Shown here piece by piece: positions 1 through 16,893 of a stretch of 16,893 nt of DNA. The stretch comes from Physocladia obscura (taxonomy: Eukaryota; Chytridiomycota; Chytridiomycetes; Chytridiales; Chytriomycetaceae), in NCBI GenBank assembly GCA_027596945.1, contig JADGJH010000043.1:6984-23876 (forward strand), written 5' to 3'. The translations under genes and the position numbers were made by a program. Position 1 is the first letter of the stretch, and each line of letters opens with the position of its first letter. Under the pieces are notes generated by a model. The model had not been told where the DNA came from, ran no database searches, and saw nothing but the letters and a program-made list of their open reading frames with translations.

Positions 1-1
1 A

Positions 2-1565
2 GTACAGAAACCACTGCGATCACTCAACAGTTCCACCCCAAAAATAGTTAACGTTGGCAGCAATGGTCTAGTTTCTTCCGCGTTGCAGCAACAGTCGGCA
101 ACAATAACTGATGGGCCATTGCTCTACTCCGAGTTGGCACTTAGCCCGCGACGGTTCTGGGTTGCCGCCGGTGTATTCTTTGCAAATTTCAATAATGCAT
201 TTGTATGGGCCACTTACTCACCAGTCACTGGGTCGGCGGCAGCGTATTACGGATGCAGCGAATGGACGATCAACCTTGCCGCACTTGTTTTCCAGATCAC
301 GTTCCTGCCGTTTGCATACCCCGCAATCTGGGCGCTTGATGCGTGGGGACTCCGTATTTCAACGTTAATTGGTGCCTGGGGAATTACTGCTGGTGCGTTT
401 ATTCGATGGATTGCCTGTTTTGGTCCTGTCAATTTTCGGTTACCGCTTCTTTTTGCCGGACAAACTATTGCTGCTGCTGCTACACCGTTTGCATTTAATA
501 CACCAACAAAGGTACTCAAATCAGTTATCAATATTTAGTAATTTTGATATTAGTTATCATTGTTTAGTAAAATTTCCTCTTTTTTTTCTTTAGGTTTGCG
601 CCGCTTGGTTCGGGGACAAAGAACGCCTTACCGCCAATACAATCATGTCTTTGTCGATATATGCAGGCACAGCAATGGCAATGGGCTTGTCACCTGCAAT
701 TGTTGGCAGCGATCCAAACAATATCAATACACTTAATCTCGTTTCATTTGTGATAATTTTTACCACTGGAATGGCTTCTCTGCTCGTTTTTGACAAGCCC
801 GAATTTGCGCCGTCAAAAAGCGCTCAAGAAGAGCTACTGCCCTTTCTGGCTGGGTTGAAATCTCTCACGCGCAACCCGCAATTTTATGTTATTTTTGTGG
901 TATATGGAGTCATCTTTGGCGCACTGGACACGTACTTCACTCTCATAAGTGACTATGTCACGCCGTACGGGTATTCAGAAGCCGACGCAGGAGTTCTTGG
1001 AATCAATACAATTATTTCAGGTACAATTTCATCGTTGATTCTAGGGCCTATTTTGGATCGAACAAAATCGCACCGATTCTTTTTCAAGGCACTCACGTTC
1101 GTCACACTTATTGGTGCTATTCTATTCTACTTCAGTGCGCCTTATCCGGCTCGCAGAATATTGTTGCAGCTGAGCGCGTGCGTTATTGGGATTGGTGGAT
1201 TCTCACTCGCGCCGATTGCGCTGGAGCTTGGTGTTGAGTGTACGTTTCCTGTCGCGGAAGGTGCAAGCGCTGGGATGCTGCAAACTTCGGGCCAGATTTT
1301 TGGTGTGATTATATTGTTGGCGTCAAATGCTTTGAGGACATCAGATGGCTTGCTTCAACATGCAATGGTGTGGCGAATCATGGTTTGTGCAGTTGTGTGC
1401 TTGGTTGTACCATTTTATACAGCTAGTAGTCGACGAATGGAGCTTGAGAATGCAGTGATAAATAGTATACCGTTGCAAGCGACAGGAAATATGGATGAAA
1501 TTGATATTTCTGTTGATGAAGCTGCAGATTTCACTGGTGTGGCTTCGAAAATCATAATTATTTAG
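2..1565 (+). CDS. SLC49/FLVCR-like MFS transporter (5' partial, one intron)
   Basis: Membrane transporter of the major facilitator superfamily, SLC49 (FLVCR/DIRC2/MFSD7) branch. Animal FLVCR1/2 move choline and ethanolamine and have been linked to heme; the substrate here is unknown. The reading frame is open from base 2 with no in-frame ATG in exon 1, so the start lies outside the window. Exons are 2-511 and 594-1565, with a phase-0 GTACTC..TTTAG intron at 512-593 that removes in-frame stops. About 493 residues are visible. Family marks, in order: SPRRFW before the first membrane helix, PAIWALDAWGLR, AAWFGDKERLTAN across the splice junction, GPILDRTKS, and ELGVECTFPVAEGASAG followed by SGQIFG. 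The long hydrophobic segments suit a 12-helix transporter. The tail is acidic (MDEIDISVDEAADF). It converges on the ELMO gene. Family call is confident by eye; substrate and localisation are not. Confidence 0.86.
512..593 (+). other. Intron in the SLC49-like transporter gene
   Basis: 82-nt spliceosomal intron. Donor GTACTC follows an AAG lysine codon; acceptor is a T-rich tract ending TTTAG. It lies between codons (phase 0). Removing it joins the conserved block TPTKVCAAWFG. Leaving it in gives a TAG at 536-538. Confidence 0.85.
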
Positions 1566-2166
1566 GCTGCGTTCGGCCATGAAAAATTGTTTTTGAAAAA
1601 CTGTTTGTGCCACCCCTTGCTTTTTACCTGTTTCATATCACCATGTTGATTACTTCCAAAAACTTCTGATGATATTGGTGCACCATTAGCTGGTGTCATG
1701 GTATTTTTACATGCTTGGCAGTTTTTGTTATAGCTTTCAGTCTTCACTCGATATGTTTGGCATTTTTTTTTGAAAAATTTTTTAAAATGCCTTGCCGTTT
1801 TTCAAACATAACACTGTTTGCTTTTCTCTTTCCAATCTTTATAATTTTGCGAAGTTTTTTTAGAAAATCGGGCATTGCGACGGCTATATTTTTGTTTAAA
1901 TCAGTGTTTTTTATTTTCTGCTTTTCAGCAGTACCTTTCTGGTATTTTTTATTTAGATGTAATACTCTTATTCTGAGCTGTTGACTGCATACGACGCTGT
2001 TTTTAAGGGCCGTACATCCATTCTCGGTATGTAGGCAGCAGACCCATTCGTGGCTGCTACTTCCTTTGTTTTGAGCCAGTAAGTCTGGCTTGCTGTACAC
2101 TTTTGCAGCAGCCTCCGTAGCCAGACTAATTGCGCACCGCAGCACACAACTGTCGCAAATCTGTGG
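1562..2166 (-). pseudogene. Unrecognised lysine/cysteine-rich ORF pair, possible gene relic
   Basis: Not recognised. On the minus strand one frame is open from 2166 to a TGA at 1746-1744, and a second frame takes over at 1747 and runs to a TAA at 1564-1562. One frameshift, or a missed intron, would join them into about 200 residues. The first part starts with a cysteine group (CDSCVLRC) and continues with HEWVCCLHTENGC, then becomes lysine-rich. The second part has CQACKNTM and later histidines (QHGDM, GWHKQFF). These could be metal-binding residues, but no known zinc finger is matched. The stretch at about 1985-2170 is richer in G, C and CpG than the DNA around it, which suggests past coding. 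There is no in-frame ATG near the start. It could simply be the spacer between two convergent genes whose T-rich plus strand reads as lysine. Confidence 0.22.
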
Positions 2167-2288
2167 TCACCGTTGATCCTGTTTTTTGCAGCATCAGTCT
2201 ATATGCTTTTGGCATTTCAAGTGAAAACTCAGATTGCATATCAAATTTTTTTCAACTTCTTTTTTATATTATAATTATTATATGGCTA

Positions 2289-5200
2289 TTATTTGGAAGA
2301 CTCTTCTTCATCTGAATCATAACTTTGCAAAGACTCCTTCACTTTTATCCCTCCACCACCATTCAAAAGATTCTCTAATGCACTAATCCCATCCCTCACG
2401 CTGCCGTCAGCCTCATAATAAAAATCTGCGTCCATCGGCAACTCAGGAACCTCGACATTCTCAATATTTGGTACCTTAATATTATTCGCAGTGATTCCTA
2501 ATAAACTCAATTGTAATTCGTGTTCTGTCAGTTGGTGAATCAGTTCACGCGTCTCGTCGGTTGCAGGCGCCTTGTTGAGAAGCATGTTAAATCCGTCGAT
2601 CCATTCACTGAACTGGATTGGATTCAAGCAGACGAAATCGGCGAGCGTTGTGGATGGAGTTTGTTGCTGTTGTTGAGATGACGACAATGCAATCATTGGT
2701 GAGGCTGGATAGTCGTCATTAGTGCTATTAGTGCTTTCTTGAGAAGTTGCAATCGAAAATGTGAGTTTGGGGTTTTCTTGGGCACCGTGTCGAGTTTTGA
2801 TTACCGAGGATGAATGCCCAGTGAGAATATCGGTTATCTGAGAAATTTCAACTAAACATTTATATTTTCAGTAAACTTATTCGAGCACGTACAATAACTC
2901 ACTTTTATGAGGGAGCTGGTCCAGAGAAGGTAGAGAATTCGTGTCTTTGAAATCGCCATAATGCAAGAATTCTCTGTTCGAATTCAATCGGTAGAATCGA
3001 TTCAGATTCTTAGCACGTCCTCGCTCTTTAATGACAGGAAACCATGCACCATTCAAAAGGCAAGTAATTCGCTGTTCTTTAATAAACTCATAATTGCTTT
3101 CCTTCAACTTGTCTCGGAGAATCCTTTTTTTGGTGATTTTTTTTTTAAAAATTTTTAGTATTTAAAACTAACCTCAAAAGCCAAATTAATTTACCTGAAC
3201 GGTCGTTCTTCAAGCAAAGCGAAATCATTATTCAGCTCATTCATTTGACGCTCCTTAATTACACTGTATGCTGTCGATAGCATTTCGCGCTCAAAAAGTG
3301 TAAATTCATGCACATCCGAAACTTGGTTCGTTGACATGCAGAACTTAAAATGCGAGCGCACAGTTGCACCAACTCTACTCACATCATCACTCGAACTTTG
3401 TGCCTCCATTTCTAGCCACAAGCGGAAATACAATCGCAGCGTTATTGAAAATACACGTTCGAACTCCAATAGCAGCGGTTGCATTGTTGCTGAGGTCGTA
3501 TCTTTTGCAATATTCACGCTTGATAAATTAAAATAAATTAAATGAACGAAGGGGGTTTTTACATCCAGTACTGATTTCCCAATGATCAAATAGAACTTCA
3601 AGGACTTCTGCGCTGGCTTTTACGAACGGTATTCGTTTCTCTGCAGTTTTCACGCTCTGCTCATACATAAACCGAGTATAATATTCAACGTGTGACACAG
3701 CAAAAGCGCACATAATTTCAAGTCCCAACACACCAACTCTGGACAGTTCTTTGCGTGGAACATCTGTCTGAATACACGCGCATCTTAATATATAAAAAAT
3801 GACAGATAACAGAAACATTGACAACTCACATCAAATCCAAGTCTACGCCATTTATAAGTCCCCGTTCCATCAATTTCTAACCCAGCAACTTTCCAAATCT
3901 CAATCAACATTTGTTCATGCTTTGATCCTGGACTTATCACCACATTTGCTCGTTTACGCCGATTCCATTCCTTCACCAACAATCTCTGAAACTCGACAAT
4001 TAATTTCCGCACCTCCGTCACTTGCAGCGCGTTATTTGCTTCCGGAAGACTGTATGCCAGAGAAGCAATCTCGCTCCTCAGTCCGTTTGCTTCAAACACT
4101 GCAAAAAGCGAAAACGCTATGGGTTGGGTTTCTAGAGATTTATGGATCAATGCGTTGATGAGTGATAATGAAATCGACTGAAGGGAAAAATCGCGTAGTG
4201 AAAGTCTTGACACTAATGTACGCACAAAAGATGATGGTTGTTGTTGCTGTTGATGTTGCTGTAATGGAGGTGGCGTAGACATGTACGTATAAACGGCCTG
4301 GAGAATACGCAATACTGAGTTTTTTGAGTCCAACAGTTTGATGAGGAGCGAGGTTGCCGGTCTGCTGACCATTATTTGCTGCTGTTGCTCAACTATTGCC
4401 AACAGAGTGGTAATGAAGGTCGCAGAATCGAGGGAGAGAGAAAAGATATCTTGGAGTTGGTGAATGTCAAGCAAGGATTGCATTGCAGTGAGTGCGAGCG
4501 ATAATGTACTTCCCTTTATCTTTGGCGATGCAATCATTTTCGTTAATTTTACAATGCCGTTTTGGTTGATGAATTCGGCTGCAACTTCCTTGTCCTAAAC
4601 ATGTTTTTGAGTTTTTTTTGTATTATGAAAATTTTTTGAATGCTTGGTTAAATGCCACAAATTGAAGACACTCACGCTCATTTGGCCAACGATTTTAAAA
4701 AGTGCTGCTTTGGTAGCGTTTTCAGTATCATCTGATTCCGCTGTTTGAAGATCTCTGAGCAAAATACTGGCTTTTCTGCGCGGTGAAACGACCAGCTGAA
4801 GCATTGCTGACGAGTCTGTATAATTTCAAAACGTGAATTAAAACAAAACAGAAGTGAATTCGGAAAATTAGTACCTTTTATGGCGACTCCGAGTGCCTGA
4901 TTAAGGTTTCAGTAACGCGGTGAGAAAAATCAACAACAAAGCATAGCAACGTACATGACTGTCTGTAATAACGGGGCCTTTGTCGACGCGAAGGACGAGA
5001 TTTTCGTGTTCAGAAGCGTCGGTGATTGCGAAACGAAGAGCACAGTTCTTGACTGTAGCGGCCAATCTGATGCTGGTGTCGATTGCAATTTCCGCACTAT
5101 CACCAGTGATTTCATAAACAACGCGCCTGACAAAGATGTAGCCGTAATCAGTATTGTTGTTGTTCTTGCCGTTGGTGCTGTTGTTGCTGGTGGCGTTTTC

Positions 5201-5869
5201 TTTGGCCATTTTGGAGTTTTTGTCAGAAGGTTTTTGCTGTTGAACTGAAGGTAGCGAGCGCTTTCCTGCGGGAACCAAAGGCGAAGAAACACGCCTCGGA
5301 GGCGAAGTAGCGGGCGGCGAGGTTTCGGCAGATGAGAGAATCGAGCTGGCGGAAGAAGTTGCGCTTGAGTTTGCGCTCAGGATTGAGGCTGTAAGGGAAT
5401 TTGCGCTGGTTTTTGTCTTGGGAATCAGGACTGGTTTCGGTTTCTGCTTGGATGTTGATCCGGATGCTGCCGAGTTTGACGATCGCGCGGACGAAGCGGA
5501 AACTGTCGAGCGCGAGTTTGAGTTTGTCGTTGCGGCTGAGTTTGTTGTTGCGGTGGATGTTTGCGATTCGATAGTGCTGGTTGAGCCTTTACGACTCACA
5601 CTCGCGCTTCCCGCGTTGCTGTTACTGTTGCTGTATCCGCCGTATCCGTTATTGTTACTTTTATTGTTGCTGCTGCTTCCGTTTTCATTGCGATTCTGCT
5701 CAAACATTGCACGAAGTTCTGTAAACTTGCGTTTTGATTCGCCTTCTTGTCCATCTCCGCGCTTCATCACCCACTTTTTTTTTTCAAAAATGGATTTTGA
5801 ATGTTCAATCGATCTTCTCAATGACTTCAGCCAGCGACTTTTTTTGGCCGACCCTTGCTGAAAGACCAT
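2289..5869 (-). CDS. ELMO1/CED-12-like engulfment and motility protein, eight exons
   Basis: Orthologue of ELMO/CED-12, the partner of DOCK-family exchange factors that activates Rac in actin-driven movement and engulfment. Exons in transcript order: 5869-4955, 4896-4875, 4815-4676, 4594-3830, 3767-3572, 3501-3195, 3123-2903, 2851-2289. They join in phase to 1042 residues. The start is the ATG at 5869; the frame stays open upstream without another ATG. Residues 1-240 are a basic helix (KKSRWLKSLRRSIEHSK), LRAMFEQ, then a Ser/Asn/Thr-rich linker. About 242-330 is the ubiquitin-like Ras-binding domain. About 330-580 is the armadillo-like region. The ELMO domain starts near 585 (HEQMLIEIWKVAG, then KWRRLGFD). 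The PH domain spans about 794-970, with REFLHYGDF and FSEWIDGFNMLL. PELP at 991-994 is a minimal PxxP where animal ELMO carries its DOCK SH3-binding motif. The tail is acidic (DSDEEESS). Exon 5 could instead end at 3563, with a GTAAAA donor in the same phase. Confidence 0.9.
4875..4896 (-). other. 22-nt microexon of the ELMO gene
   Basis: Exon 2 of the ELMO gene, coding ALGVAIK plus the first base of an Asp codon. It is flanked by a CAG acceptor (intron 4897-4954, donor GTACGT) and a GTACTA donor (intron 4816-4874, acceptor ATACAG). It is needed to pass from phase 0 to phase 1 between exons 1 and 3. It completes the last part of the Ras-binding domain before SSAMLQLVVSP, which lines up with the same place in animal ELMO proteins. 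Confidence 0.75.
5130..5700 (-). repeat. Low-complexity Ser/Asn/Thr-coding tract in ELMO exon 1
   Basis: Imperfect triplet-rich DNA (on the plus strand TTG/TTGCTG/GTTGTT runs, densest at about 5150-5190 and 5620-5690) encodes runs of Asn, Ser, Thr and Ala in the N-terminal extension. The frame stays open across more than 500 bases, so the tract is coding. It is a likely site of length variation between strains. Confidence 0.7.
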
Positions 5870-6292
5870 TGAAACACCCAATACACATGAAGTCGTTTTT
5901 GGAAAAAACCATCCGTACAGTTCCTGACAGGATAAAAGAGCTGTGAACGACAAAAAAGAAGATAGAAAAAGGACGTTGATTAAAATTTAAAGTAGTATTG
6001 TCGTATTGGATGCCACAATAAAATCGAAAACTGTGGAATACAGTTTTGAAAAGTGAGTGGGAAGCGAAAAAAAATAAATTTCCCAGAAACTTGATTTGAA
6101 ATGATAGAATTATGTTGAAAAATTTTGGATTATCAAAAAAAAACTAACTTTATTCTTCAATTTTCATATTACTTTTTATTGTAATTTATTAAATATTTTT
6201 TTGCAGACTTTTTCGTGAATAGAGATACTTTTTTTCCATACTCCCAAAATGCTTGCAACCTCAACAGCAATTATATGATTTTGATTCAAAAC
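5870..6292 (-). promoter_or_regulatory. ELMO upstream region with one CCAAT motif
   Basis: AT-rich spacer between the end of the ankyrin gene and the ELMO start. On the ELMO coding strand a CCAAT pentamer lies at 6009-6005, about 136 nt upstream of the ATG, a usual distance for a CCAAT-binding-factor site. No convincing TATA box was found. The coding frame is open back to 5953 without an ATG. No other gene is seen here. Confidence 0.3.
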
Positions 6293-6298
6293 TTTATT
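6293..6298 (-). terminator. Poly(A) signal of the ankyrin gene
   Basis: AATAAA on the minus strand, 29 nt after the ankyrin gene stop codon. Confidence 0.6.
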
Positions 6299-6327
6299 AT
6301 TACAAAATCGCTGACACGAATTCCAAT

Positions 6328-7662
6328 TCAACATAAATTCAACAACTGTCCAATAGGTCTTTCTGTTGCTGAGATACCTGATGCTGATCTGCGAGGGCCA
6401 TTCTCATTTACAGACCCATGCTGAGTATTTTCAAAGACACGAGGGCTATTATCTGACGCAGATGCAGATGTACACGCTGCGGATGTTGTTGATACACGAC
6501 AATCAGCCAAGAGTCGAGTAGTAATATTGGTATATCCGGCTTTTATTGCGAAAGCCAAACACCAATTGTGATCAGTTGTAGGATCAACGCGCCCATCATT
6601 TAGCAACAAATCAACAATCAAGAAATTTCCATTTTCAACAGCAGACTTCAGAGCCTCATTATTCAAATCGCGCGGATTTGCCTTATCATTTGCCAGAAGA
6701 AGTTTTACAATATCAAGCTTGCCATGTTTACATGCATGCCTTATACACCAGTTTGATTCTGAGGATGGATCGACACGCGAGTCCTGCAAAATAACTTCAA
6801 CATTTTCCACAACTCCCTGTTGGACAGCAACCTTGAGAAACATTTGATCGCTAAACGACGGATCCACACGCGAATCTAACAATAATTTCCTGAGAACATC
6901 AGACCTTCCCGCGATTTTGGCAAATTTCACAAGTGCATAGTTACTCTGCACGGTCGGATCGCAGCGTCCATCGTGGATCAAGAGCTCAGCAATGTTAACG
7001 TGGTTCAAGCTGCACGCGTCGACTAAAGCTGAGCTCTTTCGAGCGGCGGGGTCAACTCGTTTATCTTGCAAGAGTAATTTCACAGTGTCGAGATGGCCTT
7101 CGACAACAGCCCATCGAATGGCGCGGTTGTCGCGACAAGATGGATCAAAGCCGAGTTTGGGAGCGAGGGCAAAGATTCTCTGCATGCGAGCCAAAGAAGC
7201 GGCGGGTGAAAGATGCCAGGCGTGTGGATCGACGTGAAAATCAACATGTCCGAGCAACTCAAAACTGTTTGTTTGGATGATGTTATCGTTGTGACTATTG
7301 TTGCTGCTATTGTTTTCAATGTTTGCTGCTGTTGCTTCACACGACGCGGCATTAAGAATCTCGGCATAGACAACAGCTTGGTAGGTGGCGGGGAGAGAGC
7401 GGTAGTTTCTATTTGCGATACGGCCCTTGTCGATGAAAGCCCACAGAGACTTTTGCTTTGATGCTTCGTATTGGAAACGGACGTGGGAAACTGCAAATCC
7501 AGAGTCTGTGAGAAGTTGCTGTGCAAACAGAGTCTTGCATGCAAGCCCGGTTTCAGTAAGATCGACACTTATGGGCATATGAATAAGGATCTGCCGTATG
7601 ATTTCTGGCGGTATTCTGTAGATGGGACTACTGCTGTTGCTGATAATGTTGGCAGCAAACAT
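6328..7662 (-). CDS. F-box-like, ankyrin-repeat protein
   Basis: 444-residue single-exon protein built for protein binding. Residues 14-35 (YRIPPEIIRQILIHMP) look like an F-box, the element that docks a substrate adaptor to Skp1 in SCF ubiquitin ligases. Residues 111-132 are an Asn-rich linker. Residues about 171-391 hold seven ankyrin-like repeats of 31-32 residues. Most end in L-L-x-D-x-R-V-D-P, with typical helix pieces such as AIRWAVVEGHLDTVKLLL and CIRHACKHGKLDIVKLLL. The last 50 residues are Ser/Thr-rich and disordered. Ankyrin proteins with a D-x-R-V-D-P repeat end are abundant in chytrid and other early-diverging fungal genomes, to my knowledge, and are mostly uncharacterised. The ATG at 7662 is the first in frame and directly precedes the F-box-like segment. 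A role in targeted protein turnover is inference; the ankyrin call is firm and the F-box call moderate. Confidence 0.88.
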   Translation of the reverse strand: MFAANIISNSSSPIYRIPPEIIRQILIHMPISVDLTETGLACKTLFAQQLLTDSGFAVSHVRFQYEASKQKSLWAFIDKGRIANRNYRSLPATYQAVVYAEILNAASCEATAANIENNSSNNSHNDNIIQTNSFELLGHVDFHVDPHAWHLSPAASLARMQRIFALAPKLGFDPSCRDNRAIRWAVVEGHLDTVKLLLQDKRVDPAARKSSALVDACSLNHVNIAELLIHDGRCDPTVQSNYALVKFAKIAGRSDVLRKLLLDSRVDPSFSDQMFLKVAVQQGVVENVEVILQDSRVDPSSESNWCIRHACKHGKLDIVKLLLANDKANPRDLNNEALKSAVENGNFLIVDLLLNDGRVDPTTDHNWCLAFAIKAGYTNITTRLLADCRVSTTSAACTSASASDNSPRVFENTQHGSVNENGPRRSASGISATERPIGQLLNLC

Positions 7663-9172
7663 GTTTTTGTTTCTGAAAGCAAATTATTTTGTTCTAAAAT
7701 GATTTGATTGAACAGAAACATTCCGAGCATTCAACACGTCACATTTTTAATCGACTATTATACAGTTATTACAAATGAGATATGAATTCGAAAGATATTT
7801 AGCTTCCTGCAATTCTTTTTATTTTTATATGTTTACTTTGCTATGATGCTGTAATATATAAATGCTTCAATGTTTTCTAGAGAAGAATTGTCTGATGCTA
7901 AATTTATGACAGAGATTTATCTTAGAAGCAAGTTTTCGATAATTTCGAGATCCTCGATTAGCTTAATTTCCTGCAAACGAGAGCAACCGCCGTATTTTGT
8001 CGAGCGCATGGACACCCTCCACGTTTAAATACGCGCACTTTCGCGTTCGAATAAAATTCTTCGTTGCGATGAAAAAGTTTCTTATCAAACAGTGAAAACT
8101 TTATCCAGCGATAGCTTGTAGTATGCAATTAAAAAATTTAACGAAAGAATATAATCAAGTTTAACTTATTCGATAATGTGATCGAAGACCTCATGATGCA
8201 TCGATTGTAGTGACGGCAGGACATTTTTGGGACACTGGCGGATAAAAATGATTTTGCGAGTTGATCAGCGAAAGCAGGAGAATCTTGCAGAGCTTATTCA
8301 GCGCATCCATGAGAGATCGGATCTTAACTTCGGCCGATTGGCAGCACACAGATGAGACCTGTGTTGCGGCAACCAAATGACGGCTTTAGGCTGGAAAATT
8401 ATCCTTCAGCATTTCTTATTCATTCAGCTTGTAATCATAATGGCGGTTGCTTTTTGGGAATAAGATTGTTGAAATTCAGACTGCAAGCTCCGACTTAGGA
8501 GAATTTCTGATGTTTCAATAAGAACTGTCCAAAAAATTGTAAATAAAACGAAAAACATGTAGGACTGTCTCTCTGATTTCTTTTTTCTAGCTTTACTCAA
8601 TCTTTTTTTTTTTTTCTTTCTTACCCTTTAAACGAAAAATTGCTGACAAAGCACTCTGAAGATCTTTAAAAATGAATTCTGTTAAAAGAACAGAGAGTTA
8701 ATTTTTTGGTGAAGAAAAGTTAAAAAAACTAGAGAAAGAGGTAAGCCGTCAAGTTACTATTTGGCCATGTGCAAAACGAGTGACAAATTATCACATATTC
8801 TCCAGTTAAAAAATTTAGAGAAATTAAAAAGTTCCATAACAGTTCATTTGTAAAAAGCAATCAAATGTTTAATTTTTTTTCTTCTGCAGATTTGAAACAG
8901 TGGGAGAAATGCCCTCTTTTTCCCCCTTTTTCCCTGTAGTGCAAAAATGATTTGGAGGGAAAGCAAGATTGAGTAATGGAAATTTTCAAATCTTTTTTTT
9001 AATCCTGTCAGAATGCCAAAAGCCCAAATTCGTTTTCAATATTAATAATCGAGAACAAAGTGTAAACTTAATTAATGCATTTGCTTGAATGCACTAAAAA
9101 GATGCTGTGAATGCAGCAAGATAATATATCCAGTATTTAATAAAGCAAAACTTCAGTTTGAAGCAAAATGAT
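7663..9172. other. Intergenic region with a CpG-richer patch
   Basis: About 1.5 kb between two divergent genes, so it should hold both promoters. Most is AT-rich with T and A runs and long frames are absent. The exception is about 7960-8390, which has clearly more G, C and CpG. It holds a 35-residue plus-strand ORF (8248-8355) and, on the minus strand at about 8245-8180, a short F-box-like reading (VLPSLQSMHHEVFDHIIE, then stop). No tRNA or other structured RNA gene was recognised. Confidence 0.5.
8248..8355 (+). CDS. Possible 35-residue small ORF
   Basis: ATG-to-TGA frame of 35 residues within the CpG-richer patch. It reads as one charged amphipathic helix (RVDQRKQENLAELIQRIHER) with a basic end. 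Nothing homologous is recognised. It has no evident promoter or poly(A) signal. An exon fragment, the complement of a relic on the other strand, or chance are all possible. Confidence 0.15.
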   Translation: MILRVDQRKQENLAELIQRIHERSDLNFGRLAAHR

Positions 9173-9181
9173 TTATATAAA
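9173..9181 (+). promoter_or_regulatory. TATA-like element before the small secreted protein gene
   Basis: TTATATAAA about 110 nt upstream of the ATG at 9291, the clearest TATA-like match in this spacer. The DNA is AT-rich, so a chance match is possible. Confidence 0.3.
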
Positions 9182-9290
9182 TTCATTTTGTGAAATTTTA
9201 GAAAAAAGGTGAAATTTTTTTTTTCCAAAACATTTAAAAGACATGCACGAAGGAAAAAGACAAATAAAAAGGACACCGAAATAACAAACA

Positions 9291-9656
9291 ATGCAAGTAT
9301 TTGCTTCAGGACTTATTCTAGTAGGAGTCGTTCTGGCTACCATCCGCCGCCGCGACGCTCTTTCAACTGTCGCGAATGATTTTGAATCTCTTCCAATTTG
9401 CTTTCAGACTTGCGTACAGAAGGAAGTTGGCAGCTCTCAGGTGACTACAGCCACAATCGACGAAGTATGCACGGCCGTCACTACCGACAACTCGCTCCTG
9501 CTTGCCATTACCACTTGTGGCTTCTCCACGTGCTCATCGACCAATCTTACCGCCGGAATTAGTGCGTTGCCAAAGTTGAAGACGGATTGCACGGCTGCAC
9601 TTGCTGAGATTGCTGCTACAAATACCACTACTGTTGCTGCCACTGCCACCATCTGA
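9291..9656 (+). CDS. Small secreted six-cysteine protein, CFEM-like
   Basis: 121-residue protein with an N-terminal hydrophobic stretch (residues 3-17, FASGLILVGVVLA) that looks like a signal peptide, so it is probably secreted or wall-bound. Six cysteines sit at 37, 41, 60, 76, 81 and 100, giving spacings C-x3-C, C-x18-C, C-x15-C, C-x4-C and C-x18-C. The LPxCxxxC opening and the later C-x4-C resemble the fungal CFEM domain, which usually has eight cysteines; two appear missing, so this is CFEM-like at best. CFEM proteins bind heme or act at the cell surface and in host contact, but the Asp used for heme binding cannot be placed here. The C-terminus is Ala/Thr-rich without a clear GPI-anchor signal. 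N-glycosylation sequons occur at NLT (85) and NTT (111). There is no intron, and a poly(A) signal follows 28 nt after the stop. Confidence 0.72.
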   Translation: MQVFASGLILVGVVLATIRRRDALSTVANDFESLPICFQTCVQKEVGSSQVTTATIDEVCTAVTTDNSLLLAITTCGFSTCSSTNLTAGISALPKLKTDCTAALAEIAATNTTTVAATATI

Positions 9657-9683
9657 TTTTTCTAGTGTATAAAACAAACACAG

Positions 9684-9689
9684 AATAAA
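9684..9689 (+). terminator. Poly(A) signal of the small secreted protein gene
   Basis: AATAAA 28 nt after the stop codon at 9656. Confidence 0.6.
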
Positions 9690-11097
9690 TTCAATACACA
9701 TTGTTATTAATATACTTAATATTTTATTTGCTTGATTTCAATCGTTCGATGACTTTTGCTTATTGTTTTCCTGCTTTAATGATATTATTCTGATGTCCAC
9801 GTGATTGTTTAACCCGGCTATCAAATTATTCACAGTATTATTGGGCAAACAGGGTGGTGGAAATTACTGCCGAAACTCCCCAACTACCATTTGGAAAGCA
9901 AAGAAAGGAAAAGAAAAAGCACGTTTCAGGGTGACACCACACTGTTGAATACAAATCCTTTCTGAACTATTATTTCTGAATTGAAATCTTACGTGAAATA
10001 GATATCATAATTTGAAAATTGCAAAACGCCCTCAAATCTAGCTTCAGCAAAATAAATTTATCTCTTTTGGAAGCCCAATTAACACCATTGTATGATACCC
10101 GAGCAAATCTGTGCTCTTATCCCTTCTGACATAATAAATACACAAAATGCAAAATATATCTAGAAAATTTTGAACATATATGGACCTGTCCAACATTTAT
10201 TCCAAAATGTAAATTGGATAAAGCAAACAATTCACACGCCCAAAAAAAAAAAAAACCCTGAAAAAAAACAAACAGGAAAATGGCTTATCAACCACATTTG
10301 GGAAAAAAATAAATTTAGCGAAGATTTATTCCTGACAAATAAGCTTTCAATTGCAAACAGTTAATTGGAAATCAAGAAACAATTAACAAGAACAGAAACG
10401 GCCCCAATACATTAACATAATTTAAAATACACCTGAAATTAAATTAATCTCCTTCAATTAAAAAACCAAATAACTATTTGAGGATCATAAATACTACTCA
10501 TCTAAAGCCTCGACCATACTTGAAATCAACAAATAATTATACTTTTAACGATATACGATAGACCCTGATTGGTTCCAGTTCACGAAACCCAACAATACCA
10601 GCAAGATAAATGGTTCAGCTGGAAGTGATCATACGTTGGAAGGAAACTGGTAAAAGAACAATTATCTAGGTTAGCTAGATTAGTCGAAGGGGCTTTCAAT
10701 ATTGCTAAATAAAAATACTTATTTTGTTAAAACCAATATTTTGGATTTTTTGTCAGCACCTGCCGATGACGCTGTTTGACATAAATTAATTAATTCAATA
10801 AAAGATTTCAATACACCTAATAGAGATTCGATATTCTGTAAGAATGATATCATGACATATTGGGTACTTAGAGCGATATTTACTGTTTACAAATAAAATA
10901 AAATTAACAAGATTGAACGAGACCTCCATATAGCCCAAAGAGTTAAATTAAATTTTCAACATGCAAATACAGAGGGGCATTCACACAAAAAAAATTGAGA
11001 AAAGTTGGGGAGATATGAAAGTCTGACTGACTTTTACTCAGTTTGCGCTGCAGCAAGGTTGTGCAAAGAAGAAATACAGATCAAGTTTTATGAAAAT
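9690..11097. other. AT-rich intergenic region
   Basis: About 1.4 kb with no coding frame worth calling, no tRNA and no repeats recognised. The single open frame at 10170-10364 is made largely of A-runs coding Lys and Asn. CpG occurs at scattered sites throughout, unlike the region after 15086. Confidence 0.5.
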
Positions 11098-11121
11098 TTT
11101 CGTTTCACATTTCGTTTCACA
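11098..11121 (+). repeat. Two tandem copies of a 12-bp unit upstream of the monooxygenase
   Basis: TTTCGTTTCACA is repeated exactly, head to tail, ending 47 nt before the monooxygenase ATG. It lies where the promoter or 5' leader should be, so it may be a paired binding site. Only two copies are present and no factor is recognised. Confidence 0.55.
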
Positions 11122-11168
11122 TTTTTTGAAACTCAAGCTGCTCCCTGATGTAAATATAACAACCAAAA

Positions 11169-12458
11169 ATGGGCCTCAAAGTTATTATTGTTGGCGCTGG
11201 TAACTCAGGTCCGCTACTGGCTCTCTACCTTCAAAGAGCCGGACACACCCCTGTCATCTATGACATGTTCAATCCAACAGACTCTCCTACGCATGAGAAT
11301 CCTCTCTTTTTTGGTGACCTTGGCGGAGCAATTGGGATTTCAATAAATGGTCAGCGCGTGCTTGACGACGCAGGGATACTCGAGGATATCCTTAAAGTTG
11401 CAAGCGAGCCGTTTAACAACACAATATTTGCAAAGATTGATGGATCCAGTCCTGTCACACTCACCAACTTTGAGGGAAATCGCAATGGGTTCTCCAAATC
11501 TTACAAAACATTCACTATCATGCGAATGAATTTGCAACATGTAATCGGTATGGCGTGCAGCAAAGCCGGAATTAAATATGTCCTTTGCAGCAAGCTTGTT
11601 AAAGTTGAGGAGAGCGAAGGCGGCGTGAAGGCATATTTTGCAGACGGTACAAGTGCTACGGGTGACATTCTTGTTGGGGCAGACGGCGCTCATTCGATTA
11701 CCCGAAAGTCTCTTTTCGGTGATGCACACAAGGCAGTGTTCGCCAAATGCATTACTCATGTTGGAGTTACTGAATTGGGAAATGGCAAGGGTTTGAACGG
11801 GGACGATTTGGACTTGGACCACGTTTTGGCATTTTACAATGACCGTTCAAGTAACCATGCAACCGTGTTTTTCAAAACCGCACCCAATAACAGTTCCTGG
11901 CATATCACAGAAGTCAACTTGCCTGCAGGAGAAAATATTAATGACGATTGGAGACCTGTATCTGACTTGCCGAAAGAATCTGCACGCCTTGCTGTTCTTC
12001 TTGAAGGTTGGGGTGGTCCAAAGAACCATGTTGAGATTGTCAGGGCAGCGCGTAGGATCACCTCAACCCCACTCTATTTTGTCCCGCCTGTGCCGTCCTT
12101 TTACAAAGGTCGTGTTGTACTTATTGGTGATGCTGCGCATGCTATGCTTCCTTATCTTGGACAAGGCGGGAATTCGGCTTTGGAAGATGCAGGCACTCTC
12201 GGGCATCTCCTGGCTGAACTTGGCGATGACTGGAAAACAGCTTTTCGCCTCTACAATGAAATTCGCCAACCCCGAATCAAAACAATTGTCGCACAGACTG
12301 ACATAATGGCAGGGATGAACAATGCATGGTATGGACATTTTGTGGTTAGAGTAATGGCATTTGTTGCGCGATATTTTGGAAACTTGGACAAAATTACAGG
12401 ATACGATTTTCTTGCCGATACAAAGGCTGCCCTTGCCCTAGAAAAATCTAAAAGGTGA
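11169..12458 (+). CDS. FAD-dependent monooxygenase (aromatic-ring hydroxylase type)
   Basis: 429-residue flavoprotein of the PF01494 group (salicylate/phenol hydroxylase and fungal secondary-metabolite monooxygenases). Such enzymes use NAD(P)H and O2 to hydroxylate or epoxidise an organic substrate. All three class marks are intact: the dinucleotide-binding GAGNSG at 9-14 inside VIIVGAGNSGPLLALYLQRA; the DG motif GADGAHS at 170-176; and the FAD ribityl GD motif RVVLIGDAAHAMLP at 315-328 followed by GQGGNSALEDA. Length is normal for the family. There is no signal peptide, so it is probably cytosolic. It is a single exon with ATG preceded by AACCAAAA. A 12-bp tandem repeat lies just upstream and a poly(A) signal 41 nt downstream. 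The nearest neighbour downstream is a dead tyrosinase, also a phenol-oxidising type, but they share no evident promoter, so the link is weak. Substrate unknown. Confidence 0.9.
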   Translation: MGLKVIIVGAGNSGPLLALYLQRAGHTPVIYDMFNPTDSPTHENPLFFGDLGGAIGISINGQRVLDDAGILEDILKVASEPFNNTIFAKIDGSSPVTLTNFEGNRNGFSKSYKTFTIMRMNLQHVIGMACSKAGIKYVLCSKLVKVEESEGGVKAYFADGTSATGDILVGADGAHSITRKSLFGDAHKAVFAKCITHVGVTELGNGKGLNGDDLDLDHVLAFYNDRSSNHATVFFKTAPNNSSWHITEVNLPAGENINDDWRPVSDLPKESARLAVLLEGWGGPKNHVEIVRAARRITSTPLYFVPPVPSFYKGRVVLIGDAAHAMLPYLGQGGNSALEDAGTLGHLLAELGDDWKTAFRLYNEIRQPRIKTIVAQTDIMAGMNNAWYGHFVVRVMAFVARYFGNLDKITGYDFLADTKAALALEKSKR

Positions 12459-12498
12459 TTTTTTTCAACTTCGAGGAAGTGACTGTTGGTGGTTTTGG

Positions 12499-12504
12499 AA
12501 TAAA
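12499..12504 (+). terminator. Poly(A) signal of the monooxygenase gene
   Basis: AATAAA starting 41 nt after the stop codon at 12458. A second near-copy follows directly (AATAAAATAAAG). Confidence 0.65.
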
Positions 12505-13549
12505 ATAAAGAGAACTTTGTGGACTGGAAAAAAATAATAAACTAGAACTAAAATTAATAAAATTTAAAATAAAATTAAAATGTGAAAAACAAAATAACAA
12601 ATAATTTTAGTTAAAAAAAAAAAAATTCAATTTAGATAATCGAAAAGTTCTCAATGTTATTATTCGTGACAGTGGATATATTCATTGCTATTCAGAGTGT
12701 TTCATGGATTTACAATCACTTGGTGCTATCCTATTGTTTCTTCTAGTGTAGTGCTTGTTGCTAAATCAGTTGGAGTCAACTAATTCAATACTTCATCTTT
12801 TAGAACTAAATAATAAGAGTTTGAAATTGAAGTTAAAACTTTAATTCTTTGGAAAGATTTTTTTTCATGTAAAACGATCCATAATATCAAAAACGATATT
12901 TGGGTTCAAATAGTTTTTGGAATAGACATCAAAAGAATAATAGGAATAAAAGACACTTCAAAAGAAAATAGTTGGAAAGCATTTGGAAATCACTTGAATT
13001 GTTTTTACAAAGAATGTTGAGAAATGTTTCGAGTTAATTTAAAAGAGTTTAAAAATTGATTCACATTGAAATAAAAAAACAACAGTTTTCTCTAAAAATA
13101 ACAAGTACTGTTATTTTACAGTAAAGAGGAAGAAATTAAATGTTAAAGGTTACATTTGGAAATTATTGGATTTTATGGAAAAATTTGTATTATTTTTGCC
13201 CTGGCCAATTTGGTTCTTCTGTGACTTGTTTGAATTGGTTTGGTGTCTCTTTTATATTTACTTTACTTATTTATTTTGATTACAATTGGTGGTTGACAAT
13301 GATTCAAAATTGTGCTGTTTTGTAGAGCCAAGAATTTAATAAAGAAATGGTTTCTGAAAGAGCTTTCAAAGAAGATTTAAATTTGTCACAGTGTATAAGT
13401 CTGCGTCAAAAAGGTTTATTATTACTCTAGCACTATTTTATTGGCTGTAAGTAAAATATCGTTTATGTGGTTCACAGATTTTTTTTTAATCATTTGCACA
13501 AAAATTTTAGTGGGGAAAAAATCTATCTGGAAGAAAACTTTGGAAAAAA
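12505..13549. other. AT-rich intergenic region
   Basis: About 1 kb with very low GC and only scattered CpG. No gene, RNA or repeat was recognised. The frame at 13140-13325 codes a Trp/Phe/Tyr-rich string with no family resemblance and is taken as chance. Confidence 0.5.
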
Positions 13550-15181
13550 ATGAAGCTTGTAAATGCAAGGATGATTATTTCGCAAGCTAGTGGGCTAACG
13601 CTTGTACTTGTGGCGGTGGAGCACCTTGAGTGCAAGCTAGAAGGCCCAATATGGTGCAGCCATAAAGGCTCTGGCTGACCGTCCGCAGAACCCAAGCGGT
13701 GTTTTAGCCGACGCAGCAACAATCTCGCTGAAGGACTTTACGAATTTGTGAGTATTGACTGCATTCTTTTGCTGATTCGGTGATGATTAATCCAAAAGCA
13801 TCTGCGCTTTTTCCTTCATCTGTCCATTTGAAAAACTCTATGACTCTTACCCTCTTTTTCCCTGGATTCTGGATTCCAGCCACGCACGCGCCTCGCCGCG
13901 GGCCCACGGTTCAGCTGAGTTTTACCCGTACCACCGTTTGAGCAGGCAATGCATACGGCTGGCTGGTCAGGCGGTGTGGTGTACTGGGACTGGCCGGCAA
14001 TGAATACCAACTGGTGGAAATCTGATGTCCTCTCCTCGACGTATTTTGGTTCTCCAACAAGTTCCGATCCAAACAATTGCGTTATTGACGGCGTGTTTGA
14101 GTTCTCTGGCCGCGCTGGACTCGGATCTCTCAGTCTACGCTCCGGGGATGCACACCGCCGCTGCCACTCAACGATGTTGATTCTGCCACAACTGCTCTGT
14201 TAGATATTAATACACGCTATTAGGCTTTGACTTATGCCGCGTTTCGGGGCGATTCAATTACACGAGTCCCAAGGGGTTCCACGCCCCTGGCTACGAAACT
14301 ATTGGCGGAAAAAGCTCCAGTTGCTTGCCAGATATGGCAAGTACTTCCATATCTCCAAATGATCCTCTCTTTTGCAATCAAAAATTTTAATAATTTTTGG
14401 TCAAAATACATCATGTGCTTGTCGATAAAGTGTGGTGGCGTTGGCAACAGCGTTGTCCAGCTTTTATGTACGATTATGAAAGGCTTTTAACCGATAATGA
14501 CCCCATTAACTTGACTTCCAGTGATGTTGCAACAATGACACAGGAACATGTGGGGCATTACAGTTGGAAAACTTCTCAACCGTGAGGGAGATTTGCTGTG
14601 CTTCACATACACCACTTCTGTTAGTGATTTAACAATGCCATCCGTCACTTATCCAGATTTTACTGGTATCCCAGCAGCGGCCGCAGATTCAAGCGACAAC
14701 AGCACCTCCAATTCAACTGGCTCAACTAACTCAACCAATGCCAGTGGTTCAAGGTTGCCACAGTCACCCTTGCAGATGTCTGGATGAATAAGCTGCTCAT
14801 ACCAACAAGTCCACTCTCTTTTGGCAGCACATCAACAAACTCAACAGTTGCTGTATTTGGCCGCCATGACGAAAAAAAAGACAGCGCATTCTACTTTTCT
14901 GCTGACAAGATTGTCGATGACAACCCAACGCACTACGAGATTTCAGGCGGTGCCAATAGAACTCTTCTCATCACGTTTCTTCAATGCACAAACAAAACCC
15001 TCGATACATTTACCGGTCATATGCCGAAGCCTAGAATTACGAAGAAGGAAATAAAAAAATTATTCGTTACTATGTTGACACGCCGCTCAAGCCTTATGAC
15101 ACTTTTATACTAGCAAATTTCAAAATTCAGAGGCATCTCAAGGAACAAAATGGAAGAAAGAAACTACAAAACAGGCATTAA
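13550..15181 (+). pseudogene. Fungal tyrosinase pseudogene
   Basis: Remains of a secreted copper tyrosinase, an enzyme that oxidises phenols to quinones and feeds melanin synthesis. An ATG at 13550 opens a hydrophobic leader. Then, in changing frames: KAQYGAAIKALADRP; a 132-nt intron (13748-13879, GTGAGT..CCAG); the CuA block with its histidines (AHGSAEFYPYHR); FEQAMHTAGWSGGVVYWDW; CuB pieces HAPGYETIGG, SPNDPLF and HHVLVDKVWWRWQQRC; a Ser/Asn/Thr-rich linker; and a C-terminal part ending at a TAA (15179-15181). Damage: stops at 13638 and 14221; a deletion with frameshift at 13937; frame changes near 13600, 14101-14150, 14252, 14547, 14745 and 15037; an AT-rich in-frame insertion with two TAA codons at about 14370-14408 that splits SPNDPLF from HH; and Tyr at 14292-14294 where CuB expects His. 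Introns cannot explain this many changes. CpG is normal here, unlike the DNA just downstream. Confidence 0.88.
13748..13879 (+). other. Surviving intron of the tyrosinase pseudogene
   Basis: Donor GTGAGT after the segment LADAATISLKDFTN and acceptor ATTCCAG before CACGCACGC. Splicing in phase 2 makes a Phe codon and leads straight into the CuA segment. The 132-nt length is longer than introns elsewhere in the window. It shows that the copy arose from genomic DNA, not by reverse transcription. Confidence 0.65.
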
Positions 15182-15221
15182 AGAGGATTCTGGATTTAGT
15201 TTTTAATGTAGAATCTTGACA

Positions 15222-15227
15222 AATAAA
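15222..15227 (+). terminator. Poly(A) signal remaining after the tyrosinase pseudogene
   Basis: AATAAA 41 nt after the last tyrosinase-frame stop (15179-15181). It supports the view that the pseudogene ends here. Confidence 0.45.
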
Positions 15228-15502
15228 AGCTCTCTCAACTCTCAAATTTAAAGTCTACTATCAAACTTCTGATAAACCTACTGGAATATCAACATAAGTC
15301 AAAAGCCAATGTAGTGATGGGTTTTCTCAAACAATTTGCAAAATGTCACAAAAACCAGCAAAAAAAAAAAACAATCAAACATTTAGTTGCTAAACCCAAG
15401 AATTTGGAAGGGAACTTTAGGGGAATAAAAGTTTTTGAGGCTTTCAAAGGGGCCGGCAGGCTGTTGTTGTGGAGGAAGGCGGTGGTGTTTTAGGTCTGGC
15501 TA

Positions 15503-15688
15503 ATGAATGATATTGATCACTCTGATTCAGATGAAGATATCAGTAGAGTTGATTCATTGTTTGATAGTAAAAAAAGCAAAAATGATAGTAGTGATGTGAT
15601 GATGGTTGAAAGTTTTTTCTCTGTTTCCAAAAAAAAAATAAAAAATCACAATAAAAACCCAAAAGCAATTGCCAAAGCCAGACACTGA
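15503..15688 (+). pseudogene. Acidic then lysine-rich ORF, possible N-terminal piece of an element protein
   Basis: 61 residues from ATG to TGA. It starts with an acidic Ser/Asp run (DHSDSDEDISRVDS) and ends basic (VSKKKIKNHNKNPK). Acidic Ser/Asp-rich starts before a DNA-binding domain are common in transposases, but this is weak evidence. In another frame directly downstream (about 15690-15870) the reading KKSGSV, then KYGFKNF, then RRKCSNI recalls the order of a BED zinc finger, with a stop and a frame change between. No firm family assignment. Confidence 0.2.
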
Positions 15689-16018
15689 CACACAACAACC
15701 AAAAATAAAAAATAAAAAATCTGGGTCAGTTTGAAATATGGTTTTAAAAATTTCATGAGTGCAGAGGGAAGAAGAAAGTGTTCAAACATTTCCAACACCC
15801 CATCACAGTTGATGAAAGAAAGAGTGAGATCTGTGGAAGTTGGATGTATTCAACTCAAAGAAGTAGTTTTTTGCCTCTCAATGTATATCCTCAGCAGTGA
15901 AACATCTTCTGGTTGTACTATACCAAGAACAACAATGCTGTTTGGGGACCAGTTTAGTATGAGTAAATCACATAATATCTGCATTTTTAATATACACTGT
16001 ACATTACTCCAGCAATTT

Positions 16019-16330
16019 TCAAGTCAAGTTTGTACAGTGAAGGATCTCACAAGCTGATTGTAAAAACTGTTTGTACTTTTCATAAAAAAGAAAGTGGTAT
16101 TCAGTAAAATGGTTTATAATCCAGTCTTTTTGAACTGTTGAAAATTTCTTTTCAATGACAGTACTCAAACTGCTTGATTCAATGAGTATTGTTGCTGTTG
16201 ACTTATGATAAATGTGTATAAATTGTGACAATTTCATAAGCATGCACTCTTGTAATTGTGTTTGTATGTTTTGATTCAACTGTATTTGAATTGCATTCAT
16301 GTTCTGCAAAAAATTCAGCTCCTTGCTCAT
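16019..16330 (-). pseudogene. Unrecognised 103-residue ORF in the CpG-poor region
   Basis: ATG-to-TGA minus-strand frame of 103 residues with helical, Gln-rich character (NAIQIQLNQNIQTQLQ) and an aromatic basic end (FLFYEKYKQFLQSACE). A good 3' splice site (TTTTTTGCAG) lies just inside it, so it may be an exon joined to sequence upstream. One such candidate is the minus-strand ORF at 16470-16354, which begins MSAVDESGNDIYGLGVLLF. No homologue is recognised and strand choice in this region is uncertain. Confidence 0.2.
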
Positions 16331-16349
16331 TAACTAACCATCCCCTTGA

Positions 16350-16398
16350 CCAATCAGATTTGACCTTCCTTGGTCCAATCACAATTTTTTTTATAAAT
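16350..16398 (+). promoter_or_regulatory. Two CCAAT boxes followed by a TATA-like element
   Basis: CCAAT at 16350-16354 and again at 16375-16379, 25 bp apart, then TATAAAT at 16392-16398. The order and spacing suit a polymerase II promoter reading to the right. A minus-strand ATG at 16330 lies just to the left, so a two-way promoter is possible. CCAAT and TATA are common in this composition, so support is moderate. Confidence 0.35.
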
Positions 16399-16500
16399 GA
16401 ATTTATCAGCAACAAAAAGGAGCACACCCAATCCATATATATCATTTCCAGATTCATCTACAGCAGACATTGCCACCAACCATCAGCTCAAAAACACAAG

Positions 16501-16580
16501 GTGAGAACAATAAAAAGAAGAAGAACTAAATGCATAATACTATGCTCTTCCTGTCCATGTACAACAACCTCAACTGACAG
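16501..16580 (+). other. Candidate intron
   Basis: GTGAGA donor and CTGACAG acceptor, 80 nt apart, with a possible branch point (CTCAAC or CTGAC) just before the acceptor. It lies about 100 bp downstream of the CCAAT/TATA elements. It would remove the in-frame TGA at 16575-16577. No confident protein is produced by splicing, so it remains a candidate. Confidence 0.25.
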
Positions 16581-16849
16581 TGCAACACAACAATCAACAA
16601 AACTGATGCTGAATTCATTGACACAATCAATGTGAGAACTCAGAAAGGTCCTAACTATCTGAAGAATAGCCATGGTGGTAAACAGATTGGAGCTGGTGTA
16701 AAGAAAAAGGTTATAAGTTGAAGTCTAATACTGTTGTTCTGACAATTATAAACTACAGCTGCAAAGTCCACAGAGCCAAGGGCACACAAAAGCACCTGCA
16801 TTCATATCAACGCAAACACCAGTGCATGTTGTTACGGACAAAAAGATAA
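16530..16849 (+). pseudogene. Coding relic with zinc-finger-like end
   Basis: One frame runs from an ATG at 16530 to a TGA at 16719-16721 with a single internal TGA at 16575-16577, and includes DAEFIDTINVRTQKGPNYLK. A second frame then continues from about 16690 to a TAA at 16847-16849 and includes GYKLKSNT and NYSCKVHRAKG with following histidines (QKHLHSYQRKH). The order G-Y, hydrophobic strand, aromatic-x-C, basic, His recalls the FLYWCH/FAR1-type fingers found at the start of MULE-type transposases. The resemblance is loose and was not searched. Both internal TGA codons could come from CGA. Confidence 0.25.
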
Positions 16850-16893
16850 AATAATTTGATTTGTTTATTATTTTTATCTTTCTTGTTTTATTT

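Follow-up and report, generated by a model that had tools for sequence, protein, structure and literature searches.

Erasure of CpG from a patchwork of repeats in the chytrid Physocladia obscura

How does a stretch of more than a kilobase come to hold no CpG at all when the DNA on its left side holds nearly the normal number? The question is raised by one locus in the genome of Physocladia obscura, a chytrid of the Chytriomycetaceae whose assembly comprises 21.76 Mb in 1,222 contigs. The whole stretch of DNA analysed here, 16,893 nucleotides long and referred to below as the window, is C43:6984-23876, and the window end is also the contig end. Besides the FAD-binding protein listed in Table 1, proteins encoded in the window match the MFS transporter, ELMO and ankyrin families. 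The feature next to the CpG-poor DNA is a tyrosinase-like stretch, whose PF00264 match (E 6.6e-7) covers the C-terminal fifth of the domain. It is likely a pseudogene: its frames are interrupted by stops, and a clean intron set was looked for by eye in this stretch and none was seen. From 13581 to 15084 there are 71 CpGs against 83.5 expected, i.e., near normal, so the decay of that gene is not evidently due to a loss of CpG; this supports an earlier, sequence-only reading of the window, according to which the neighbouring gene may have died by another route. Please note that a local dip is found within the tyrosinase remnant at 14501-14800 (5 CpGs against 16.0 expected, with both TG and CA raised), which may reflect either spreading or the coding bias of a Ser/Thr/Asn-rich stretch.

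The CpG-free core and its edges

The same reading had counted no CpG in 15482-16810 and just two in 15086-16810, where tens should occur. Both counts proved exact and the coordinates stand uncorrected, with 38.8 CpGs expected in the core and about 51 in 15086-16810. The two residual CpGs of 15085-16810 are at 15454 and 15480, and there are no others. In 20,000 mononucleotide shuffles of the core, the minimum was 21 CpGs; given the rate at which G follows C in 1-15084, the probability of finding no CpG after 231 Cs is about 5e-23. The 1331 bases spanning the core are the largest distance between neighbouring CpGs in the window, the runner-up being 374, and the 15,085 bases of 1-15085 contain 594 CpGs.

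TG and CA, which had been described as frequent, are at 1.71 and 1.50 times expectation in the core, as compared with 1.21 and 1.18 in 1-15085. TA is not raised in the core (0.55), and GpC is at 0.95 there versus 1.34 in 1-15085. The RIP indices calculated from the core counts, TpA/ApT of 0.64 and (CpA+TpG)/(ApC+GpT) of 1.51, are the opposite of RIP by the usual thresholds, and together with the raised CA and the low TA they bear out the claim that the pattern is not that of Ascomycete RIP. Repeats undergo C-to-T mutation both in the RIP of Ascomycota and here; the differences are that here CpA is raised, TpA is not, and the loss looks gradual.

The left CpG edge is abrupt: CpGs stand at 15081 and 15084, and the next one is found only at 15454. 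On the right side CpG reappears at 16811 and then at 16835, and a two-state segmentation runs the depleted block from 15085 to the window end. A sharp edge at about 15085 and normal CpG in the tyrosinase part had already been recognised from the letters of the sequence, but the dip at 14501-14800 had been missed. Two further stretches of the window are CpG-poor, 8550-9247 (5 CpGs against 14.7 expected) and 12473-13580 (7 against 17.7), and part of the latter matches a CpG-empty stretch of another contig (C900, L040) at 70%.

Table 1. Features of the window discussed in the text (window positions).
Feature	Position	Strand	Basis
FAD-binding protein	11169-12458		100% identical to HK100_008735 of Physocladia obscura
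Tyrosinase-like remnant	13581..15113	+	PF00264 match and three-frame reading; frames with stops
Whole CpG-depleted block	15085..16810	.	2 CpG against 50.9 expected; two-state segmentation
CpG-free core	15482..16810	.	0 CpG against 38.8 expected from base composition; shuffles
R1, dispersed repeat of about 200 bp	15086..15295	+	Genome matches; alignment with 8 fetched copies
CpG-poor stretch without detected second copy	15296..15775	.	2 CpG against 13.0 expected; holds 15454 and 15480
R2, degenerate repeat unit	15776..16315	+	Partial matches on C408, C765, C29 and others; 0 CpG against 14.1 expected
R3, degenerate repeat unit	16311..16893	+	Copies on C10, C257, C274 and C787; reaches contig end

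Repeat units in the block and their copies

Rather than a single element, the block is a patchwork in which three or more repeat units are combined with one piece for which no second copy was detected. For R1, the genome search gave at least 40 further match rows at 78-94% identity (40 of 96 candidates scored). When the window copy was aligned with eight fetched copies, the 3' end was common to 9/9 and a recognisable start was found in 6/8, the 5' limit being uncertain, with an A-rich run preceding the start in several copies. Similarity to R1 in the window starts at 15086-15098, at most about 15 bp from the last CpG (15084), so the edge of the CpG loss coincides, or very nearly so, with that of the repeat. 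Together, the eight fetched stretches hold 3 CpGs against 50.5 expected. Neither TG (0.89) nor CA (1.11) is raised in the window copy of R1, and the control count, 64 TG/CA discordant sites versus 19 GT/AC over 36 non-independent pairs, gives a weaker contrast than that of the retroelements described below. R2 and R3 resemble fragments elsewhere in the genome at about 61-88% identity, giving the core 14 further matches on 11 other contigs, and the part of R3 from 16311 to 16810 has no CpG where 16.9 are expected. A search for repeat copies in the same genome, proposed by the sequence-only reading as a check, therefore yielded copies of R1, R2 and R3. What it called a methylated element is indeed mostly repeat; it is, however, not single, being a patchwork of units and one of many such blocks.

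When the core was scanned against Pfam in all six frames, no transposase and no family above the cut-off was returned, a marginal Tom6 match below it being the sole hit. BED or FLYWCH zinc-finger remnants were considered as part of the block and dropped, as the six-frame Pfam scan gave them no support. The hAT dimerisation domain has two matches in the genome (C217 and C152), none of them on the contig of the window. A genome search with 15300-15790 had itself as the sole match; the loss of CpG from 15296-15775 would thus need either spreading or an old repeat that is no longer recognised as one.

The R3 copies were compared site by site. The copy on C274 (L019:4738-5143) keeps 15 CpGs and lies mostly within a CpG-normal domain. 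Immediately downstream of it is a putative gene, an open frame of 402 codons for which no Pfam family scored above the cut-off; its two weak matches are at E 0.023 and E 0.025. At the 14 ungapped CpG sites of this copy (one CpG spanning an alignment gap was left out), the copies in the window, C10 and C257 have kept 0/42. These 42 former CpGs are now TG or CA in 32 cases, TA in 4 and something else in 6; where the C274 copy has a C or G outside CpG, transitions amount to 61/415 over the three depleted copies. At 6/14 sites one copy has TG and another has CA, indicating that the losses there were independent.

In local alignments, the non-CpG divergence of the window R3 is 20% from C274, 22% from C10 and 20% from C257, and in a global alignment its divergence is 21%, 32% and 28%, respectively. 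The C274 copy may be the closest relative of the window R3, yet it differs in CpG, and since the global alignment puts it nearest the window, the R3 copies may not be of equal age. In other repeats, some closer pairs have their CpG loss in common. Among the 70 pairs listed out of 95 found (a comparison in which L048 duplicates part of L027), the pair L017/L027 has 1 discordant versus 34 shared TG/CA sites, indicating that part of the loss predates copying.

Would it be possible that such elements are CpG-free by nature, i.e., selected to be so or already so on arrival, and did not decay in place? The CpG-free state that L017 and L027 have in common would suit this explanation, and so would a second reverse-transcriptase family (L051, L052 and L055, on C541, C202 and C572) that combines few CpGs with long open frames, up to 541 codons, at a CpG observed/expected of 0.07-0.29, the 541-codon frame itself being at 0.07. 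The ancestor of this family was already CpG-poor; for L051/L052 we obtain about 34 CpGs per 1,946 aligned positions, which is below normal. Against it stand the 15 CpGs of the C274 copy of R3, the independent losses that the other three R3 copies need at 6 of the 14 sites, and the normal CpG density of the ancestors of family A. We regard an origin of the block from elements lacking CpG from the outset as very unlikely.

CpG-empty DNA in the genome and the rate of loss

Stretches similar to the block are common in the Physocladia obscura genome. Ten stretches taken at regular contig numbers, i.e., unselected, gave 118 clean 300-bp bins, in which CpG observed/expected is below 0.2 in 19, from 0.2 to 0.6 in 20 and above 0.6 in 79 (mean 1.06). 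TG and CA are at 1.52 and 1.55 in the bins below 0.2 and at about 1.16 and 1.21 in those above 0.6. Nine of the ten stretches were segmented (L034, mostly N, was omitted, its clean bins being kept among the 118), and 7,865 of 36,000 bases are CpG-empty, all within 3/9 stretches. In total 24 stretches were segmented, of which 15 contain both states, 8 are CpG-normal throughout and 1 is CpG-empty throughout; please note that 15 of these 24 were chosen because they contain repeat copies or methyltransferase genes, and that both states occur in 3/9 of the unselected set.

These observations bear on the alternatives that the sequence-only reading had named, a recent transfer from a CpG-poor genome or a misjoined contig, to which contamination may be added. 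The coincidence of the window end with the contig end and the abruptness of the CpG edge would suit such an event. However, the 14 further core matches are spread over 11 more contigs of this genome, CpG-empty and CpG-normal DNA alternate in 15 of the 24 segmented stretches, and the CpG edge is close to a repeat edge. With the pattern present on many contigs and the edge at a repeat, a foreign or misassembled origin is disfavoured to the point of being hardly credible.

The rate of CpG loss was estimated from five partial copies of one reverse-transcriptase family (L049, L053, L054, L056 and L057), which form ten non-independent pairs. The copies show 5-9% non-CpG divergence and have each lost about 61-81% of their inferred ancestral CpGs, the inferred ancestral density of 0.037-0.049 per bp being the same as that of CpG-normal DNA. 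Summed over the ten pairs, there are 194 sites with TG versus CA as compared with 4 control GT/AC sites. CpG loss per dinucleotide is 35.7 times the non-CpG divergence (sd 7.3 between pairs), or about 18 times per cytosine, a rate that could be overestimated because it comes from few related copies and partly coding DNA. For methylated CpGs of mammals, the mutation rate is some ten times that of other sites; the Physocladia rate is thus of the order expected for 5mC. Applied to the core, the clock predicts that 0.56-0.91 of about 58 CpGs would survive, and 0 are observed; the clock accounts for this, and the block needs no special cause. The prediction is based on the local divergences of 0.20 and 0.22, and the global ones (0.21-0.37) would only lower the number of expected survivors.

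Two side observations concern the retroelements. L049 and L050 (G000:C479:4393-6693 and 11200-13500) are inverted 2.3-kb retroelement copies that are 100% identical, and they may stem either from a recent duplication in inverted orientation or from the assembly. In 23 of 59 rows of RVT_1 matches, all in-frame stops are of one kind (TGA in 13, TAA in 6 and TAG in 4; counted by eye), a distribution such as CGA-to-TGA decay would favour.

The gradual course of the loss also weighs against another explanation, i.e., a CpG-specific, RIP-like active mutator that recognises duplicates and mutates their CpGs in bursts, perhaps by means of a dedicated methyltransferase or deaminase. It would explain why old copies have no CpG left and why the loss is most pronounced at CpG. 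It may also draw on sequence context in family A, where CpGs are kept after T in 23/157 cases versus after G in 11/35, and before A in 15/132 versus before C in 43/116, recalling the TpCpG bias reported for Microbotryum (PMC4352252). However, these counts are affected by common ancestry and by coding constraint, and strand symmetry does not hold throughout (31/106 after A, 6/61 before T). Between 19% and 39% of the CpGs, in differing subsets, are still present in the copies with a non-CpG divergence of 5-9%, which is the behaviour of a gradual clock; the identical inverted copies of 2301 bp in C479 keep 35 CpGs each, although this is one case and possibly an assembly duplication; and 15296-15775 is depleted too, without having a detected second copy. 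We consider an active mutator improbable. A slow CpG-type RIP, rather than one acting in bursts, is possible.

Taking these comparisons together, we think it very probable that the CpG loss of the block results from repeat-directed CpG methylation followed by deamination, as the sequence-only reading had suggested; the independent TG/CA losses, the fit of the clock, the C5 methyltransferase genes described below and the CpG-keeping C274 copy all support this indirectly. The block would be a cluster of old repeat remnants which, together with the DNA between them, would be kept in CpG-methylated heterochromatin. The methylation would probably be maintained by a DNMT5-type enzyme of this genome and perhaps be established by a chromodomain-linked C5 methyltransferase. 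Methylated CpG on either strand would then turn into TpG or CpA, about 18 times faster per cytosine, until none remain, and genes, as well as the repeat copy directly upstream of an open frame, would lie outside such domains and retain their CpGs.

Methyltransferase genes, known systems and significance

PF00145 has seven matching stretches at four loci (C134, C78, C1197 and C830). The gene on C134 is DNMT5-like: pieces of 309 and 430 residues match residues 284-548 and 554-972 of 7r76_A in order (E 3.9e-100 for the methyltransferase part and E 1.1e-99 for the next part), and an SNF2 domain follows downstream. The depositors named 7r76_A DNA repair protein Rad8; we take 7r76 to be Cryptococcus DNMT5. 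Judged by these similarities, the genome encodes a DNMT5-type methyltransferase. Its predicted architecture, i.e., methyltransferase part, following region and SNF2, resembles that of Cryptococcus DNMT5, which two publications describe as a CpG maintenance enzyme (PMC13297926, PMC7862722); by analogy, CpG specificity of the C134 enzyme would follow from this published work.

On C78 (L031, G000:C78:4300-14200, about 2540-6061) a chromodomain match and a C5 methyltransferase match share the same strand, the former being upstream by about 2 kb; the two are possibly one gene. Two pieces from C78 matched nothing among solved structures at the thresholds used. The methyltransferase locus on C1197 is DNMT2-like. 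At this locus (L028), CpG-empty domains at 4471-5528 and 6360-8192 overlap both ends of the DNMT2-like gene at 5461-6934, which contains a 375-codon open frame. No SRA-domain gene was found in a genome search run without a positive control, and none of the 19 SET-domain match rows in the genome was assigned as an H3K9 methyltransferase.

The literature on chytrid methylation is divided. In Spizellomyces punctatus, another chytrid, 5mC occurs only in transposons according to one study (PMC12695648), and a 2026 review describes 5mC as near-undetectable in early-diverging fungi including Chytridiomycota, with DNMT5 being listed there for Basidiomycota and for part of the Mucoromycota (PMC13297926); the two sources thus disagree on chytrid 5mC. 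The Spizellomyces authors also state that 5mC has no substantial effect on genomic base composition across eukaryotes (PMC12695648). Methylation was measured in their species and is inferred in ours, where the local effect on composition is total.

The nearest known process seems to be the CpG-signature decay of Basidiomycota and Tuber, where repeats likewise undergo C-to-T mutation at CpG; the authors ascribe this decay to methylation and subsequent deamination and relate it to the type of methyltransferase (PMC4352252). Our case differs in concerning a chytrid, in the loss to zero over kilobases and in the DNMT5-type gene; the word 'chytrid' is absent from the portion of that text available. 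In the part available of a kingdom-wide RIP survey, 'CpG' and 'Physocladia' are likewise absent (PMC12543289). Among the papers listed by literature searches, and judging from titles and the beginnings of abstracts, we found no description of repeats stripped of CpG in any chytrid, Physocladia included, and a prior mention is possible. We regard the block as a further clear instance of a process already known, the CpG decay of repeats.

The CpG-poor family of L051, L052 and L055 may be a retroelement lineage purged of CpG yet still coding. Its pN/pS is 0.36-0.37 for L051 and L052 versus the third copy (L055) and 0.60-0.73 for L051 versus L052, values from a sample of three copies that CpG mutation itself biases. 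Tentatively, and with less than even confidence, all observations may be read jointly: CpG-empty blocks with repeat-sharp edges would be heterochromatin, promoter-adjacent copies would be protected in the manner of CpG islands, and some retroelements would be CpG-purged and coding-competent. If this is true, the CpG-purged coding retroelements would be transposons adapting to methylation mutagenesis.

The finding adds a chytrid to the fungi with CpG-erased repeats, although 5mC is near-undetectable in this group according to the 2026 review (PMC13297926). Complete local erasure coexists here with near-normal CpG in most of the sampled bins, and whole-genome averages would miss it. If methylation is confirmed, CpG-empty blocks would make it possible to map heterochromatin cheaply in early-diverging fungi for which no methylome is available, and the number of residual CpGs would serve as a clock for the dating of repeats.
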